Origin: a virus
Direction: 5' to 3' (one strand)
Length of the DNA: 23,224 nucleotides
IMG/VR virus record: IMGVR_UViG_3300021962_000678
Location: 1 to 23,224 of that record
Shown: one piece after another, positions 5,892-15,640 of the stretch
Layout: the number at the start of each line of letters is the position of its first letter
Position numbering within the stretch: position 1 is the first letter of the stretch
The notes under the pieces: generated by a model
Told to the model about the DNA's origin: nothing
The model's database searches: none
Seen by the model: only the letters and a program-made list of their open reading frames with translations
Made by a program: the position numbers and the translations under genes

Positions 5892-7667
5892 TTATATTGA
5901 TCCTATGAACTGAGCAGTTTGATTAATAAATTGAGATCCTTTAGTTACATCAGTAATTATATCACTTTGATTTTGACTTGGTTGTGCAAATGGAGTTTCG
6001 GTGGTTTGTGGTGGCGTGGTAGTTTGTTGAGATGCCTTATCGACTTGTGCAGGTCTTGGTTGTTGTGGATCCTCAGCAGCACCACTACCACTATGAATCG
6101 TATAGTAATCTGATGCAGCACAATTTGGCTTTAAATCGCATCCAAATATATTAAGTTTAATATTTTCAAAACTTAATGCAGAAGTAATACTTCCGCTGAT
6201 ACCACCTATTAAATCTTTTACACTTCCAATTCCACCAGAAACAGTCCCAAGAGTATTTTGAATATCACTTAAAAATTTATTTACGTTATCTAAAATACTA
6301 TTTACCGTAGTATTCATATCATTCATATTTAACGATATTAATTCTCCAGTAAACTCTTCGACTGAACAAATAGGAGGTCTTGGTGCTTTGGCGTTTCCAT
6401 CCTTCGGAGGAAGTTCTCTTTTAATTTTTTTATTTAAAAGACCTTCTATCAAAGCACAAAGATTATTTGAAATTTTACTATAAAGACACGTAATTAATTC
6501 TGTAATACTCTCTTTAATATCAAAATACATATATCTCATATTGGGAGGTAGTTGCTCCACAGTAGGTGCAAGTCCCTTATTAATTTGTTTAAGCACATAT
6601 TCCATAATCTTATCAAAAACGATTTTCATATATTTTGCAAGGATACATGCAAATCTAGATATCAAACTTTCAATTGATCCAACCAAATTTGAAACTGCAT
6701 CAACATATGATTGTGCAGCATTCAAAACTTTATCAATGTCTTTTGTTAGATTATCAAGTTCTGTTTGAATTGCTTTTAGTGCGGACTTAACCTTATCGCA
6801 CGGAGACATTAGTGCAGTTTTCTTGTGATAATATTCATTTGAAACTATACAAGCTTTAGTTACCTTATGTACACCATCAACACTTTCAATTGTTGCACCA
6901 GGTTGTGAAGGAGAAGTTGGCGAACTTGCTTCTTCACATCTTGCTTTAATGCCTGCAGCAACTGCTTTTTGAACGAATTCGCTTCGTGCAGTTCCAGTTA
7001 ATCCTCTAGCATCAGCTTCAGCAAGAGCACTTTGTTGATCTCTAAATTGAAGTTTGGAAAGTGGTTTATCAGATCTTAAACCAAATTGATTTACAGAAAC
7101 TCCAGGAGGAGCAGGAGCACATTCCGCAGACTGCTCTGGAGACTTTGGTTTATTAATTTCAATGCCGCGATCGGGAACCTTTATATTTGGATCTTTGTTC
7201 CCATCTGCAGGAGTCGCAACTCCACTTGTCGCAAGACTCCCTGGTTGATTATTTGTAACTCGGTTATCTTTAATAGTTGTTGCTAAGGGAGTCTGTATGT
7301 TGTTTCCAAGAACTCCCATAATGACAGGAACTTGTTGCTCCTGCCCATCAAGAAAAAACCCAAAGACCATCATTCCTTGTCTTAGGTTTGCAGTGGCGGC
7401 AGCATTTGCCTGTCCACCACCACCAGTCACAGGATACATTACCTGAGCCCAAGGAAGTTTATCGGAGGATATTTCCGTCTCCCCTTGGTCATGTAATCCT
7501 ATAATACGAACTTTATAGCGATATCCCCAACCAGGATTCTGATCTTTACTTTCAAATTTTCCCGATAGAATATTATCTCGCCAGGTTGAATCGCTGGCAA
7601 TCTGTCCTACCCACCAATTAAAATGTGACCCAAGAAACCCTGGATTAAATAAGGATCCGCCTTCCAT
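5892..7667 (-). CDS. 5: Baseplate hub protein, gp5-like OB-fold, no lysozyme domain
   Basis: A 591-residue protein. Residues about 15-130 match the N-terminal OB-fold of T4 gp5: HFNWWVGQI, YKVRIIGLHDQGE, SDKLPWAQVMYPVTGG and GMMVFGFFLDGQEQQVPVIMGVLG correspond to gp5's NWFVG, VRVVGLH, KLPW, QPIT and GHFLD-GIVLGTYGG. In T4 gp5 the OB-fold is followed by a lysozyme domain and a beta-helix. Here neither is visible: residues about 200-480 are mostly helical with several cysteines, and the tail (520-591) is rich in Pro, Gln and Thr. The cell-wall enzyme therefore seems to have moved elsewhere, possibly to the tape-measure-like protein at 9262-12195. The gene lies 6 nt after the 72-aa gene and two genes after the gp27-like hub, as expected for the gp27-gp5 hub pair. 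Confidence 0.85.
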   Translation of the reverse strand: MEGGSLFNPGFLGSHFNWWVGQIASDSTWRDNILSGKFESKDQNPGWGYRYKVRIIGLHDQGETEISSDKLPWAQVMYPVTGGGGQANAAATANLRQGMMVFGFFLDGQEQQVPVIMGVLGNNIQTPLATTIKDNRVTNNQPGSLATSGVATPADGNKDPNIKVPDRGIEINKPKSPEQSAECAPAPPGVSVNQFGLRSDKPLSKLQFRDQQSALAEADARGLTGTARSEFVQKAVAAGIKARCEEASSPTSPSQPGATIESVDGVHKVTKACIVSNEYYHKKTALMSPCDKVKSALKAIQTELDNLTKDIDKVLNAAQSYVDAVSNLVGSIESLISRFACILAKYMKIVFDKIMEYVLKQINKGLAPTVEQLPPNMRYMYFDIKESITELITCLYSKISNNLCALIEGLLNKKIKRELPPKDGNAKAPRPPICSVEEFTGELISLNMNDMNTTVNSILDNVNKFLSDIQNTLGTVSGGIGSVKDLIGGISGSITSALSFENIKLNIFGCDLKPNCAASDYYTIHSGSGAAEDPQQPRPAQVDKASQQTTTPPQTTETPFAQPSQNQSDIITDVTKGSQFINQTAQFIGSI

Positions 7668-9261: not shown

Positions 9262-12195
9262 TTACCCACCCTGATATAAAGATTCAAATGGGTCTGTTTC
9301 CTCTCCACCAAAATATGCAGAACCAACGGAAGCGGGTTCATCATAACCTTGAGATTGAGCACTCATAGGCATATCAGCAATTACCACAACTTGATCAGAA
9401 CCAGACTCGTAAGAAGCAAAGTTGCGTAATACATTTATAGCTTGTTCATATTTTGCAGTGTTCAATGCTCCCAAAAATCCAGGGAAAGTTTGTTCAATAG
9501 CAGCGGTAGAGTCGGCATCAATAACAAACTCTTTTCCTTTCTCACCAACCAATGCCAAATGTGGACGCCCTAGTGTCATTCCACCCTTCTCAAATTTCGC
9601 AATACTACCTCCAAGGAATTCTTTTAAAGTTTTTCTAACTTTAGCAGATCCTGCATAATCTCTTGCACCAATAGCGCCAGAACCACCCCATTGTGCTCCA
9701 GGGACATCAAAGGCAAGTCCAGAATAATGATAAGATCCAGGAGCGTGACCACCAACTCTATCAAATCCCTGGAATTCTGTAACTTGTATTCCTTTAGATT
9801 GGAAAAATTTATATGCTCTAACTGCAGTATTTCTATCTCTAAACGCAATATGATCGTGATAATTTGATGGCAATCCATGACCACTTCTATCAAACCTTCC
9901 AAATGGTGTGTTTGGATCTCCAGTTATATACTCCGCAACAGCACCACCTAAACTACCTCGTTCCCCAACATAACCACCTCTACTTCCCGATGAACGTGCA
10001 GTATATCCACCTTTTTTAACAGCAGACAAGGCAGACTTAACTTTATCTGCCGTCATAGAACTCCTTTGTCCAGGATAATGAAACTTTCCTTGCGCATTTG
10101 GAAGAGATGCAAATTCCTGCGACAATCCTTGCATAAATTGCTCATCACTAATTTCACCCCTCAACCATCTACGTCCACCACGATTTCCTTCAATATTGAC
10201 TTTAGTAATAATCAAATCTTGATTTTCTGGACTATACAAATCTTTATCTGGATTAAGACCTGCTGCCTTTGCTCTACTGACAAGATATTGTGGCAATTGT
10301 TGATATTTACCTACAGCACCAGTTGCTCTTCTTGCAACCTCTGCGATAGTCATCTTAGTAGCACCTTTCAATACTGTGCTTGGATACATTGCCTCATAGT
10401 TTCCACCAGATTCTTTTCCGGCAATCAAATCCAATAATGGTCCCCATTGTCCACCAGAACCACCCTCAAAAGGACCCTCATCTATTTGTTCTGTTGGATC
10501 ACTTTTATCTGGTCCAGCACCTTCCTTTCTCAATTTCAAATTTTCTTGTATTTCTCTTAAAGTCTTTTGCGCATTACTCTCAGTTGCATCCTTAAAAGAC
10601 TTTGCTACCCAATCACTAATATCGCCACCTTGAGAAATCGCATCTAATGTTTTGGGGTCAACAAATCCACCCTCAGCGAAGGCAGCAAGTCCTCCCTTTA
10701 ATTTTCCATCATCTATTCCTTTCGCAACTAACATATTAATACCAAGCCCAACATTCTTATAATCTTGTTGAGTTGGTTTTTGACCCAACAGAATCTTAGA
10801 AGTGATTGCAAGTATTGGACCAAAGTAATCACTATCACCAAGATTTTGCCCTGCCTTTTGAATCACTTTAAAGGGATTCATAACATCAGTTGCTGCTTGC
10901 AAAAACTTAAGTGGATTTGGAAATAATCCAAATAACTTTTCTTCTCCCCCAACATCTGCACCAGGAGAATTTGCTTCTACATCGCCAGGTTTTTGTGGTG
11001 CCAATCTTCTTCTATATCTACCTTTCTTAGATATTGTTCTTTTTACTCCACGTTGAGGTCTTCCACCTCTCGTTACACCACCACCAGCTTTCTTAACAGT
11101 CTTTCCTTTTCCAGATGGCATTCCACTACCAAAAAAGAAATCGTAAAGGACACCACCAATGGCATCTCCAGCAACACCACCAAGTAATCCACCAATAAAG
11201 TTTCCAGCAACAGGCACAACTGTTCCAGCAGCAGCACCTACAGCACCAAGAAGTCCAGCACCAATTGCTCTAAACGCTGCTCTTCCTGGATTTTCTCCAA
11301 GCGCAACGGACAATCCAAAATCAACTAGTGCACCAACAACAGGTAGTGGAATTCTTTTTAGGAAAGGTCTTACTGAAGAAAGGAGTGCTTTATTACCACC
11401 ACGACCAGTAGTTACCTTAGGTCTTTGTCTTAGTGGATTTCTAATGTCAATACCACCAGCACGACCACCACCACTCGTTGTTACCCTAGGTCTTCCGCCT
11501 TGCCCAGGTCTAGGTCTTACTCCAGAAGAAGCACCTCCCTTTCCACCACGACCCCCACCGGATCCAGCAGCAACCATTCCAGCAATCAATGCTAGATTTA
11601 AGAACTGATTTAGGAGACCAGAAAGTTGTTCAAACTGTTTTACTCCATCATTACCAAAAAGATTTTTTACAAATCCACGAGTGGCATCATATGCCTTATA
11701 TCCCCAGTCAATAAAGGTAACCAAACCATCTAGAAGTTTTCCACCAACACCAATTACAAAATCAGTTGCTTTTCCCAAAAATTTAACAATGGGAATTATT
11801 TTTGGCAAATGATCTACTAATCTAACTGCAAAATAACCAAGAATAATATTGCCAATAAAATTCTTTACCCAGTCCAAGAATCCCATTCTTGGGAGACTTG
11901 GTGTTTTTATTTTGTCACCTTCTGCTTTTGGTTTTGTCTCTAATTTTTCCTCTATCTTTTCTCTTCTCTTGGAACTATCTTGCCTCTTAGATTCATTTAG
12001 TTTTTTCTTTTCAGCAGCTAAAGTTCCTTTTAAGATACTATCAATCTCAATTACTTTAATTTTAATAATACCAATATTTTTTATGGACTTATCACTCAAG
12101 GCAACAGAAGAAGAACTCTTAATAAGAGTCTTGTTGATTTTTGCTAATGATCCGCCTTTAGAAGAAGGCAAAAACTTTTGAGTGTTGATTGCCAT
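9262..12195 (-). CDS. Tape-measure-like tail protein with muramidase and M15-like domains
   Basis: A 977-residue protein. A coiled, Lys-rich N-terminus (about 40-95) is followed by hydrophobic helices (about 105-165), Gly/Arg-rich linkers (210-265) and a long hydrophobic Gly/Ala stretch (280-352), as in tape measures. Residues about 583-725 form a lysozyme-like domain (LLDLIAGKESGGNYEAMYP, then TGAVGKYQQLP, then NPDKDLYSPENQDL), with E595 the likely catalytic acid, as in lambda-lysozyme-type muramidases (COG4678). Residues about 775-860 carry a GGHAPGSYHYSGLAFDVPG motif; H823 and D830 match the HxxGxAxD zinc signature of M15/hedgehog-like peptidases, though the usual later ExWH is not seen. 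VGEKGKEFVI (883-892) is a typical tape-measure C-terminal motif. Likely it spans the tail tube and cuts peptidoglycan on injection. Confidence 0.75.
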   Translation of the reverse strand: MAINTQKFLPSSKGGSLAKINKTLIKSSSSVALSDKSIKNIGIIKIKVIEIDSILKGTLAAEKKKLNESKRQDSSKRREKIEEKLETKPKAEGDKIKTPSLPRMGFLDWVKNFIGNIILGYFAVRLVDHLPKIIPIVKFLGKATDFVIGVGGKLLDGLVTFIDWGYKAYDATRGFVKNLFGNDGVKQFEQLSGLLNQFLNLALIAGMVAAGSGGGRGGKGGASSGVRPRPGQGGRPRVTTSGGGRAGGIDIRNPLRQRPKVTTGRGGNKALLSSVRPFLKRIPLPVVGALVDFGLSVALGENPGRAAFRAIGAGLLGAVGAAAGTVVPVAGNFIGGLLGGVAGDAIGGVLYDFFFGSGMPSGKGKTVKKAGGGVTRGGRPQRGVKRTISKKGRYRRRLAPQKPGDVEANSPGADVGGEEKLFGLFPNPLKFLQAATDVMNPFKVIQKAGQNLGDSDYFGPILAITSKILLGQKPTQQDYKNVGLGINMLVAKGIDDGKLKGGLAAFAEGGFVDPKTLDAISQGGDISDWVAKSFKDATESNAQKTLREIQENLKLRKEGAGPDKSDPTEQIDEGPFEGGSGGQWGPLLDLIAGKESGGNYEAMYPSTVLKGATKMTIAEVARRATGAVGKYQQLPQYLVSRAKAAGLNPDKDLYSPENQDLIITKVNIEGNRGGRRWLRGEISDEQFMQGLSQEFASLPNAQGKFHYPGQRSSMTADKVKSALSAVKKGGYTARSSGSRGGYVGERGSLGGAVAEYITGDPNTPFGRFDRSGHGLPSNYHDHIAFRDRNTAVRAYKFFQSKGIQVTEFQGFDRVGGHAPGSYHYSGLAFDVPGAQWGGSGAIGARDYAGSAKVRKTLKEFLGGSIAKFEKGGMTLGRPHLALVGEKGKEFVIDADSTAAIEQTFPGFLGALNTAKYEQAINVLRNFASYESGSDQVVVIADMPMSAQSQGYDEPASVGSAYFGGEETDPFESLYQGG

Positions 12196-12199
12196 TTAC

Positions 12200-14743
12200 T
12201 TAAATGTGAATTCCAAATATGTTGATTTTGGGTCTACTTCCTTTAGTAGACGCATTGAAACTAGGTGGACGTGAGGAAGCTGGACGATTATAGATTGAGG
12301 AAGGTTTATTTTTAGATTGTGGATATGTGTATATTACTGATGGTTTTGATGGAGGTTTTACTGGACGAACTCCTGCGTTTTTAGGACGAGCAAACCTTGA
12401 TTGATATGGTCCAGATTGTTTTCTTCTTGGATCATTGGGTTTATACATTGTCACCGGACCAATATTTTTCTTTTGAGTTTCTTGGGGTTTACCAGACATA
12501 CCCAACAATCCACCAAGTAATGTTTTACTTGCAGAGAGTCCCCAAGATTCTGCAGCAGTTCTTTTGCCACCAAGAATCATATCAACATCACCCTTTCCTT
12601 TAAGTGGATTCATTTGATGCAAAGCTTGAAGTCTCTGTTGAACAGTTTTATCTTTGCCAAACAAAACTTTCATAGGATCTTTCATTTTATCAAAATCATA
12701 CTTATCTTCAATACGATATCCACCACCCATTTTTTTATCTCTTCCATATGCCCAAAATTGTCCAAGAATATTCTTGGCATTTTCAGCAGACTTACTCATC
12801 TTACCATTTTCTGCATAATCAGCATACTGAACTCGTATTCCACCCTCTTTAAATTTCTTAAGAAAACTTCTTTGAGTATTAACTGCATTATTCCACTCAG
12901 TCCTGTCTTGTCCAGGTTTTGGTGGATTTTTGAGTAAAGTATTTAATTTTTGTTGCTCTATTCTAATTTGCTGTGCTGTTCTTTTCTTAGCTCTTTGAAT
13001 TGCTTTTTGCAATTCTGCTTGAGATTCTCCAGACAAATCTCTCTCACTGATAGGTCCACCAAACCCACCTAGCATTTGTTTGGCATATGTTGAACCAGCA
13101 TCTCTATAAGTAGAAGCTCCAGGTCCTTTCAATTTTTCAGCAATTTCCTGGAACATATTTTTTTGTCCACCTAGTTTAGATCCCCGTGTTTTAGATTTTG
13201 CTGCAGGAATATCTGGTGTTCTTATTCCCATACTATTAACAATTCTAGCCACCGCACCAACAGGATCAGTCAATAAAGATCCAGTAGAAGTTTTCCCAGA
13301 AAAAGAAGTAGATGGAGTAGAAGATGGAGGACCCCAAGTAGATTGTCTACTCAAATCAGCGCCAAATTTAAATTTAATAAATCTATTAATTGCACTTAAA
13401 GGATCCTTAGTAAAAGGTAAATTTGCATTAGAATCTCGATACCCAAAAGTTCTATCTTTACCAATCATACCACCACCAGCAGCATAAGTGGTTCCACTCA
13501 TAACCTTTGGTTTGTTGGTTCCACCTCCAGCGGCATTCATTGCTTCGAGAGTATCAACTCCATACTTGGCAACAGCACCACGGGACATAACAAATTCACC
13601 ATCGCTAAGCATTGCAGGAACTTTATCAACTCCCTTTTCGCCACTTACAAATCCACTTGCCAGTCCACCACCACTAAATCCATATGATTTAGTTTTGCCA
13701 GTCTGCAAATAAGAAATTTGCTCATCAATTTCAGATCCTTTACCTTGAAGTTTTTCAAATAAATTTAAACTTGCTTTTTGTTGTTGAAGAGATTTTATTT
13801 TATCTTCTGCACTTCCAGATTGTTTTGATGTTTGCCTTTCTTGTTGATTGACAGTTCCAGGGAACATTGCGGGAATTGTTGCCCCAGCAGTAAAAAGTCC
13901 TAGTCCTATACCAGCAGGACTCTTTATAAATTTAAGTAACTGTGGTATTGCAACCTTTCCAATCTGGAATATAAACCTACCGACAAGACCTATTGTTCCT
14001 CTAATTAATTTACCAAAACTTGTTCCAAATAAAATATAGGATCCAAGTAAAGCAGGCCACCAATCTTTAACAAAACGAATAATTGATTTTACCTTACTTG
14101 CATTACTAGGATCACCTAACCACTCTACAAGTTTATATACAATTCTTCCCATTATAACAGTGGTAAAGAATTGAATGATTCTATCAAGCAAAGATTTTAC
14201 AGGTGCTATTATTTTTTCTGCTGCTTTCTTTAGACCTTCAAATCTTTTTTCTAACTTACTCTCAGCAAGTCCTCTCTTCTCTTGCTCTGCTTTTCTCTTA
14301 CCATAAGAAGAAGCATCATCACTTATCTTCCTTTGCTGTTTTAAAGTTTCCGCTATAGAAACAACAGCAGAAGTTATTGTAGATATACTATCCTCTAAAC
14401 CTCTAGATAATGGAGAAGCACTAATAGCAGTTCCAGGTAGAGCCTTAGTTGCCTTCCCCGCAATTTGTCCCTTTATTCCACCTACTGCAAAAGATTTAGC
14501 AGTTATTTTCTTTTTCTTAACCTCAAACCTTCCATTATCTTTTTTGCTCTTAACTCTTTTAAATTCATCAGTTAAGAGCATAACTTCTTCAGTAGGAATT
14601 GTTTTTTTGGTCATCCTACTTTTGACCATTGCCTCTTTAAGAAGAGTCAAATAAGTTTCATAATCAAGATCAAAAACATCCTCAAGCCCAATGAGCCTCA
14701 GTATCCTACTGTCAATTTCCTCTTTTGGATTAGAAATGGGCAT
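12200..14743 (-). CDS. Tape-measure-like tail protein (847 aa), gp29 analogue
   Basis: An 847-residue protein. Charged helices (110-180) precede a hydrophobic core (about 184-292, including LLDRIIQFFTTVIMGRIVYKLVEWL) and a motif at 364-407 (GFVSGEKGVDKVPAMLSDGEFVM, then MNAAGGG). That motif is characteristic of tape measures (G-x-D-x-VPAMLxxGEFVM). A Lys/Pro/Ser-rich tail follows. The N-terminal layout matches the 977-aa neighbour, suggesting they arose by duplication. No enzymatic domain is visible here. The start ATG (14743) overlaps the gp51 frame by 14 nt and has no clear Shine-Dalgarno, so translational coupling is likely. Position after the gp26/gp51 chaperone pair is the canonical place of a tape measure (T4 gp29). 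Which of the two proteins sets tail length cannot be read from sequence. Confidence 0.75.
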   Translation of the reverse strand: MPISNPKEEIDSRILRLIGLEDVFDLDYETYLTLLKEAMVKSRMTKKTIPTEEVMLLTDEFKRVKSKKDNGRFEVKKKKITAKSFAVGGIKGQIAGKATKALPGTAISASPLSRGLEDSISTITSAVVSIAETLKQQRKISDDASSYGKRKAEQEKRGLAESKLEKRFEGLKKAAEKIIAPVKSLLDRIIQFFTTVIMGRIVYKLVEWLGDPSNASKVKSIIRFVKDWWPALLGSYILFGTSFGKLIRGTIGLVGRFIFQIGKVAIPQLLKFIKSPAGIGLGLFTAGATIPAMFPGTVNQQERQTSKQSGSAEDKIKSLQQQKASLNLFEKLQGKGSEIDEQISYLQTGKTKSYGFSGGGLASGFVSGEKGVDKVPAMLSDGEFVMSRGAVAKYGVDTLEAMNAAGGGTNKPKVMSGTTYAAGGGMIGKDRTFGYRDSNANLPFTKDPLSAINRFIKFKFGADLSRQSTWGPPSSTPSTSFSGKTSTGSLLTDPVGAVARIVNSMGIRTPDIPAAKSKTRGSKLGGQKNMFQEIAEKLKGPGASTYRDAGSTYAKQMLGGFGGPISERDLSGESQAELQKAIQRAKKRTAQQIRIEQQKLNTLLKNPPKPGQDRTEWNNAVNTQRSFLKKFKEGGIRVQYADYAENGKMSKSAENAKNILGQFWAYGRDKKMGGGYRIEDKYDFDKMKDPMKVLFGKDKTVQQRLQALHQMNPLKGKGDVDMILGGKRTAAESWGLSASKTLLGGLLGMSGKPQETQKKNIGPVTMYKPNDPRRKQSGPYQSRFARPKNAGVRPVKPPSKPSVIYTYPQSKNKPSSIYNRPASSRPPSFNASTKGSRPKINIFGIHI

Positions 14744-14918
14744 TGGTCATCTGCTGTTTTTGTTTTAACTCTTCTTCTTCAAGATGCTGTTGTAATAATG
14801 CAACGTATATGTCCCTCTCCCAAGGAATCATATTTTCAATTTCCCATAATGAATATTTATGGTACTGCATTAATGAAAAATTAAGTTTAAAGTAATTCTC
14901 AAGGTCCATATGGACCAT
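14730..14918 (-). CDS. 51: gp51-like hub assembly catalyst / tail chaperone, -1 frame of gp26
   Basis: A 62-residue helical protein with FKLNFSLMQYHKYSLWEIENMIPWERDIYVALLQQHLEEEE, a pattern I associate with cyanophage gp51-like proteins and with the T part of tail chaperone fusions (short, helical, preceding the tape measure). Its frame is open from 14957, overlapping gp26 by 37 nt in the -1 frame. There is no Shine-Dalgarno at a usable distance before the ATG at 14918. The T TTT TTC heptamer at 14927-14933 leads exactly into this frame, with no stop in between. It is therefore more likely made as a gp26-gp51 fusion of about 303 residues than alone. It overlaps the 847-aa tape-measure gene by 14 nt. 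Assignment to gp51 itself rests on position and this pattern. Confidence 0.72.
   Translation of the reverse strand: MVHMDLENYFKLNFSLMQYHKYSLWEIENMIPWERDIYVALLQQHLEEEELKQKQQMTNAHF
14903..14916. repeat. Perfect palindrome downstream of the slippery site
   Basis: GGTCCATATGGACC is a perfect 14-nt palindrome that can fold as a 5-bp GC-rich stem with an ATAT loop. It begins 10 nt after the T TTT TTC heptamer on the minus strand and overlaps the nominal gp51 start codon (14918-14916). It could act as the downstream stimulator of frameshifting and would also hide an independent gp51 start. Confidence 0.55.
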
Positions 14919-14920
14919 AC

Positions 14921-15640
14921 TTATGCGAAAAAACTTGCTAACCCTTCTAACACCACTTCACTTTCAACTTCAGTTACTGGATTCGTCACCTTAATTGTAT
15001 GAGAAAGTTTTGGCATTGTCTCAAAGAACCTCTCAATATCTTTGAACTGAGATGAGTTCATTGATTCTAAAAAGTCTGCCATTTCTTTTTTAGTCACATC
15101 TGCGGCAGTCCAAACTTCTTCTTCAGTAAAGATTTTATCAATGCAAGATGCAATCAATTCAAAAGATTGATCCATTGCATTCTTATTACCAAAATCAAAA
15201 TTACTCTTGATAAATTGGTCCAAAGAAGGATACTTCATTTCCATCATAATAGAATCATCAAGTTTGATTCTGTTTGAATGCTCATCATTTTTTTGGACTT
15301 TAATATCATCCAAATTAATTTTTACTGGAACTTGAGTTTCGCCATCATCAGGGCAAATAATATTAACTTCAAGTTCTTCTCCAACAGACTTACCACGAAT
15401 ATTTAAAAACAAATATTCAATGTCAAAAGTAGGAAGAGATTCTACTTTAATATTTTTTGTAAGGATACAACTTTTGATAACTGTTTTAATTGCTGTTGTA
15501 ATTTGCTTCGTATCTTCACTCTCTAAAGCAATTACAAGCAACTTTTCTTCTTTAACAAGAAACGGTCTATATTGAATAGTCTCTCCAGTTGAAGGCAATT
15601 CAAGTTCATAAGTTGGTGTAGAAATCTTAGGTAAAGGCAT
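14921..15640 (-). CDS. 26: Baseplate hub subunit gp26-like / tail assembly chaperone
   Basis: A 239-residue protein with the T4 gp26 pattern: an N-terminal PTYELELPSTGETIQYRPFLVKEEKLLVIALES, then FDIEYLFLNIRGKSVGEEL, a beta part with the single Cys of NIICPDDG, and KINLDDIKV. T4 gp26 is about 208 residues. In T4 it is classed as a hub protein; its location immediately before gp51 and the tape-measure genes, and the frameshift signal at its end, suggest a G/GT-like chaperone of the tape measure. The start at 15640 is supported by AGGA 5 nt upstream. A late-type CATAAATA box lies at 15668-15675, making this the first gene of the long leftward late unit. Confidence 0.82.
   Translation of the reverse strand: MPLPKISTPTYELELPSTGETIQYRPFLVKEEKLLVIALESEDTKQITTAIKTVIKSCILTKNIKVESLPTFDIEYLFLNIRGKSVGEELEVNIICPDDGETQVPVKINLDDIKVQKNDEHSNRIKLDDSIMMEMKYPSLDQFIKSNFDFGNKNAMDQSFELIASCIDKIFTEEEVWTAADVTKKEMADFLESMNSSQFKDIERFFETMPKLSHTIKVTNPVTEVESEVVLEGLASFFA
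14927..14948 (-). promoter_or_regulatory. Programmed -1 ribosomal frameshift site (gp26 to gp51)
   Basis: Read on the minus strand: AGAAGGG (14948-14942), an 8-nt spacer (TTAGCAAG), then TTTTTTC (14933-14927), which in the gp26 frame is T TTT TTC (Phe-Phe). The gp26 stop TAA follows one codon later. A -1 slip gives CGC ATA AGT ATG and enters the gp51 frame. An upstream Shine-Dalgarno-like element about 10 nt before the heptamer plus a downstream hairpin is the arrangement known from E. coli dnaX. This would add Arg-Ile-Ser and the 62 gp51 residues to gp26 residue 238. Confidence 0.75.

Follow-up and report, generated by a model that had tools for sequence, protein, structure and literature searches.

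A conserved slippery heptamer points to a programmed -1 frameshift joining gp26 and gp51 in T4-like marine phages

The window analysed here is the whole of a 23,224-nt stretch of DNA from a marine T4-like phage, positions 1 to 23,224 of IMG/VR record IMGVR_UViG_3300021962_000678. On its minus strand, gp26 and the reading frame annotated in relatives as gp51 meet at a short junction followed closely by a large gene. The features of this locus are given below together with the evidence from which each was assigned.

14921..15640, minus strand: gp26 (239 aa), predicted to be the short tail assembly chaperone, TAC-N (PF12322, phrog_150, hhalign to T4 gp26)
14942..14948, minus strand: internal Shine-Dalgarno-like AGAAGGG (sequence; anti-Shine-Dalgarno pairing peak; synonymous codon choice)
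14934..14941, minus strand: 8-nt spacer from AGAAGGG to the heptamer (sequence)
14927..14933, minus strand: slippery heptamer T TTT TTC (T TTT TTN at all junctions compared; no third-base change on the tree)
14930..14932, minus strand: TTT of the heptamer, in the gp26 frame (sequence)
14924..14926, minus strand: GCA codon between heptamer and stop (sequence)
14921..14923, minus strand: gp26 stop codon TAA, one codon past the heptamer (sequence; same spacing in most junctions)
14903..14916, minus strand: GGTCC-ATAT-GGACC stem-loop, a possible downstream stimulator (predicted folding; kept in some relatives)
14733..14927, minus strand: -1 frame C-terminal domain (TAC-C) of 65 residues, RISMVHMDLENYFKL..., predicted to be appended by the frameshift (phrog_634, C-terminal part of phrog_150, hhalign to T4 gp51)
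14730..14918, minus strand: 'gp51' ORF, 62 aa, 'baseplate hub assembly catalyst' in the annotation of relatives (no in-register Shine-Dalgarno; some relatives without a nearby start codon)
12200..14743, minus strand: next gene, 847 aa, tentatively tape-measure-like (weak PHROG matches)

A sequence-only reading of this stretch had proposed that these elements form a -1 frameshift cassette. Read on the minus strand, the coordinates it gave for AGAAGGG (14948-14942), for the 8-nt spacer and for TTTTTTC in the gp26 frame (14933-14927) are all correct, as are the single GCA codon and the TAA (14923-14921) that follow. The arms of the hairpin that it described, GGTCC at 14916-14912 and GGACC at 14907-14903, begin 10 nt past the heptamer. 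Between a stop near 14960 and the TAA at 14732-14730 the -1 frame contains no stop codon and runs on into gp51, as that reading had claimed, and the predicted fusion has the length it anticipated (238 + 65 = 303 residues), with the junction region ...GLASFFRISMVHMDLENYF... and junction-spanning peptides such as GLASFFRISMVHMDLENYFK and GFFRIALIHMDLENYYR. The first gp51 ATG, at 14918, lies 2 nt past the gp26 stop, and the window sequence contains no Shine-Dalgarno at a usable distance before it, again in agreement with the earlier description.

Loci were collected from 14 phages, T4 and seven IMG/VR scans; the phages collection holds 685 gp26-bearing records. Removal of duplicates, of truncated loci and of a single locus whose gp26 frame is broken left 254 distinct junctions, representing cyanophages, phages of Pelagibacter, Sinorhizobium, Stenotrophomonas, Acidovorax and Vibrio, and IMG/VR contigs. 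In the locus excluded for its frame (L176), gp26 breaks mid-gene, yet the protein is 99% like that of HTVC008M, and the break is probably a sequencing error. An in-frame T TTT TTN is found at 254/254 junctions, ending in C at 235, in T at 18 and in G at 1. The distance from the heptamer to the gp26 stop is 0-8 codons, and exactly 1 codon in 223/254. Conservation of the heptamer and of the -1 relation among relatives was what the sequence-only reading had looked to for support, and both hold at every distinct junction. In six loci (L287, L313, L332, L333, L335 and L347) the gp26 stop lies 8 codons past the heptamer, so the tail of the short form differs.

Homopolymers are error-prone, and gp26 and gp51 might therefore be one in-frame ORF split by a sequencing or assembly error in the T run. 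However, the identical frame break occurs in 254 distinct sequences, finished reference genomes included, and a true in-frame long form is seen in T4-type phages as a separate gene; we consider the probability of such an error negligible.

The frequency of TTT in these genes was considered as another source of the T run. In the remainder of gp26, TTT accounts for a mean of 69% of Phe codons, for less than 40% in 13 loci and for 0% in ACP17 and phiM9, both of which carry the heptamer nonetheless. The heptamer of phiM9, T TTT TTG (Phe-Leu), is the sole one to end in G, and its gp26 has no other TTT Phe codon. A gp26 tree with 121 representatives as its tips was used to count third-base changes in 233 codon columns. 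Only 2/233 columns show no change at all, and both are the codons forming T-TTT; the median on this 121-tip tree is 43 changes per column, and other conserved Phe columns show 7-38. The first Phe codon of the heptamer is identical in 100% of sequence pairs, against 54% expected. Phages with little or no use of TTT, together with the tree test, rule out codon bias as the source of the run. Because T TTT TTN is in frame at all junctions and only two columns are free of third-base change, the heptamer is, on this comparative evidence, not a product of chance. Very probably it is a site of slippage through which one message gives rise to both a short and a long tail chaperone.

Sequences on either side of the heptamer carry further signals. 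Calculated pairing with the 16S rRNA tail (anti-Shine-Dalgarno) peaks at -20 to -14 before the heptamer, with means of up to -6.7 kcal/mol versus approximately 0 elsewhere in the 121 representatives, and an upstream Shine-Dalgarno situated 8-10 nt before the heptamer is present in about 113/121 of them. The peak arises in part because the encoded Glu-Gly is conserved. At this Glu-Gly, GAA-GGH was seen 17 times versus 66 expected (n=103), and GGG follows the Glu codon GAA in 14/31 cases versus 6/72 otherwise (Fisher P=4e-5), such that GAA is compensated by GGG. Judged by this codon usage, the upstream Shine-Dalgarno is kept through synonymous codon choice.

Downstream, predicted structure is stronger than that of shuffled sequences only at +11 to +60, with a mean z of -1.45 in window-like phages and -1.23 in the others; the overlapping -9 window reaches z -1.0 in the window-like group, and the remaining positions are near zero. 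The corresponding segment of the window (14926-14860) folds through the GGTCC/GGACC stem with z=-1.75, a value equalled by 10/200 shuffles. The hairpin noted in the sequence-only reading is present as described, but its exact 5-bp form is confined to near relatives. All five pairs are intact in 70/126 in-register relatives, and covariation is weak, being matched by 8/2000 shuffles of distinct 14-mers and by 123/2000 shuffles of representatives. The exact GGTCC/GGACC hairpin is ruled out as a general element, given its restriction to near relatives and its weak covariation, although the same place is taken by other stems elsewhere. By these folding comparisons the specific 5-bp hairpin is the weakest element of the cassette, whereas some folding just past the heptamer is predicted for the relatives in general. 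Four loci (L003, L165, L265 and L277) carry a 10-11 bp stem of the GTATGGCTCA/TGAGTCATAC type about 5 nt past the heptamer, stronger than the window hairpin.

Past the heptamer the -1 frame is conserved and open in 254/254 junctions, extending 57-75 codons from the heptamer wherever its end is visible. The encoded peptide is conserved from the heptamer onward, in the forms FFR(I/L/V)A... and FFR(L/V/I)ALLHxxL..., and F19 and E39 are invariant in the C-domain alignment (A3). This pattern bears on whether gp51 might be a separate small gene, translated by coupling through termination at the gp26 TAA and re-initiation at ATG 14918, with the T run reflecting mere codon preference. The position of the window ATG so close to the stop is in keeping with coupling, as are an ATG nearby in 165/254 junctions and the overlap of gp26 stop and gp51 start in KVP40, S-CRM01 and phiM9. 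However, in 61/254 junctions the stretch running from the last -1 stop to 45 nt beyond the heptamer has neither ATG nor GTG nor TTG, yet the -1 peptide encoded there, ahead of the first Met, is conserved. The frameshift proposal thereby withstands the refuting conditions that the sequence-only reading had set at the level of sequence, the heptamer and the -1 relation being conserved, as is the -1 peptide 5' of any start codon. Coupling also leaves unexplained the invariant T-TTT at synonymous sites and the Shine-Dalgarno preceding the heptamer. Because those 61 junctions have no start codon, coupled re-initiation is ruled out as the main route to gp51, and we regard this account as very unlikely. 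Some independent initiation by coupling may occur in the window, because its gp51 frame has an ATG of its own (14918). As judged from the aligned junctions, the 'gp51' ORF at 14730..14918 is probably not an independent gene.

Existing annotation of gp51 varies among relatives. In S-MbCM100 it is unannotated in GenBank, and in S-E7 the GenBank gp51 starts at an internal codon; no start codon was found at the expected place in either. The GenBank gp51 of HTVC008M likewise starts at an internal codon.

The same fusion protein could be produced if RNA polymerase, rather than the ribosome, added or dropped a U in the run, since six-T runs can also provoke transcriptional slippage. Against this, 235/254 runs end in C, their six T being in register for a -1 slip, and the run is flanked by a Shine-Dalgarno and downstream structure, an arrangement that fits ribosomal slipping. 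We judge the transcriptional route very unlikely. The sequence comparisons support, with high confidence, a programmed -1 frameshift reading of gp26/gp51.

Profile searches relate both parts of the locus to T4 proteins. gp26 matches Pfam PF12322 (T4_baseplate, E=2.8e-77) and phrog_150; the -1 frame matches phrog_634 ('baseplate hub assembly catalyst', E=5.6e-29) as well as phrog_150 positions 232-281. Because the latter match follows directly on the gp26-matched part, the phrog_150 profile itself joins gp26 to the -1 frame. A query joining the two halves finds them as two pieces in cyanophages, but in T4-type Aeromonas phages gp51 matches it in one piece. T4 gp26 and gp51 are paralogous (BLASTP E=2e-6). 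With hhalign, the N-domain profile (A2) matches T4 gp26 at E=3e-18 and residues 7-187 of T4 gp51 at E=5e-6, and the C-domain profile (A3) matches T4 gp51 200-244 at E=1e-4 but gives no match to T4 gp26 (E=0.98). Since the N domain matches both proteins and the C domain only gp51, T4 gp26 is, by profile homology, the short form, and T4 gp51 the long form encoded as its own gene, a gp26-like protein with the C-terminal domain added.

The AF2 model of gp26 is confident (pLDDT 87.5). It has as its best PDB fold match the HK97 tail assembly chaperone 2OB9 (E=0.38), with YqbN 3KLU also listed (E=2.4), neither being significant alone; compared with viral models, it recovers numerous T4-type gp26 proteins as well as Acinetobacter ZZ1 gp51. 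The C-domain model is helical, and beyond close relatives its fold matches are few, weak and uninformative, Acinetobacter ZZ1 gp51 among them. Sequence searches of the PDB found no relatives.

The three-part signal resembles that of E. coli dnaX, in which a slippery A AAA AAG is preceded by an internal Shine-Dalgarno approximately 10 nt upstream and followed by a stem-loop. The two differ in the heptamer, T TTT TTC here, and in outcome, the dnaX slip giving a shorter rather than a longer protein. In lambda, a -1 frameshift at GGGAAAG near the end of the short chaperone G adds a C-terminal domain to give GT, upstream of the tape measure gene. The likeness to lambda G/GT is one of mechanism; the heptamer differs, and the C domain of the present locus is short, at about 65 aa. 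Among T4-like phages, frameshifting is reportedly conserved in several groups, and T4 is said to use separate genes 26 and 51.

The sequence-only reading had presented gp26/gp51 as a T4-type G/GT pair. Homology to the short and long forms of T4 supports the pairing, but T4 itself has two separate, divergently transcribed genes (208 and 249 aa) and no frameshift. The proteins and their proposed role are the same in both, with two genes in T4 and one gene with a predicted frameshift here; the window shows a single locus with a -1 frame. The divergent two-gene layout is also found in phiAS4, and KVP40, of the same family as T4, retains the frameshift layout. The reinterpretation is moreover already published, T4 26/51 having been identified as tail assembly chaperone genes by Vladimirov, Gautam & Davidson (Virology 2022, 566:9-15), as cited in PMC12846349 and PMC10885494. 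Citing that work, the former describes poly-T signals as known in TAC-N genes of T4-like phages, and the latter describes T4-like phages in which a short gene is accompanied by a separate gene for the long fusion; to judge from these citing papers, T4-like phages include both modes. The TAC locus of Vandenendeviridae/Andersonviridae, as in phage Adele, also has a -1 frameshift, an invariant poly-T (GTTTTT) and an open -1 frame (PMC12846349); the phage families differ, and the likeness is one of device.

The cassette, its conservation and selective constraint, and the homology to T4 gp26 and gp51 are established at the level of sequence; from these we infer that ribosomes do slip, how often they do so and that the products serve as chaperones. 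The best explanation, in which we have strong confidence, is that gp26 and what is called gp51 form a single gene whose programmed -1 ribosomal frameshift yields tail assembly chaperones of two lengths, short and long. The majority of ribosomes would terminate at TAA 14921 to give the 239-aa TAC-N. A minority would pause as the internal Shine-Dalgarno 8 nt upstream pairs with 16S rRNA, probably aided by the downstream stem-loop, whereupon both Phe-tRNAs would re-pair one base back, moving from TTT-TTC to TTT-TTT. Translation would then continue in the -1 frame to 14733, producing TAC-NC, the long form of 303 aa. If lambda G/GT is a guide, the tape measure protein would be coated by the short form, and the rare long form would recruit tail tube subunits through its C domain.

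In hundreds of cyanophage records gp51 stands as a separate 'baseplate hub assembly catalyst', where it is most likely just the tail of the fusion protein. We lean towards the view that Shine-Dalgarno, T TTT TTC and stem constitute the ancestral, near-universal route to the long chaperone in the T4 superfamily, and that T4 26/51 arose later by a duplication that replaced the slip; on that view the 'gp51' annotated in cyanophages would have no existence as a separate protein. Going by the citing papers, the central idea is already in print, and what is gained here is breadth and detail, not a new principle: the evidence that the survey contributes on the slip site is strong and takes the tree into account, and it is relevant to how abundant marine phages assemble their tails.

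The gene that follows the chaperone locus is a likely, tentatively assigned tape measure gene. The PHROG matches of its 847-aa product, all weak, include tape measure proteins as well as families labelled 'endolysin', and in HTVC008M the annotated tape measure lies one gene further down. Elsewhere on the minus strand, a gp5-like 'baseplate hub and tail lysozyme' (5892-7667) has a weak OB domain, and Pfam finds no lysozyme domain in it. The second large ORF after the chaperone locus (9262-12195, minus strand; 977 aa, Gly-rich) also looks tape-measure-like, and its stretch SGGNYEAMYPS...GAVGKYQQLP resembles, by eye, a lysozyme/transglycosylase domain.
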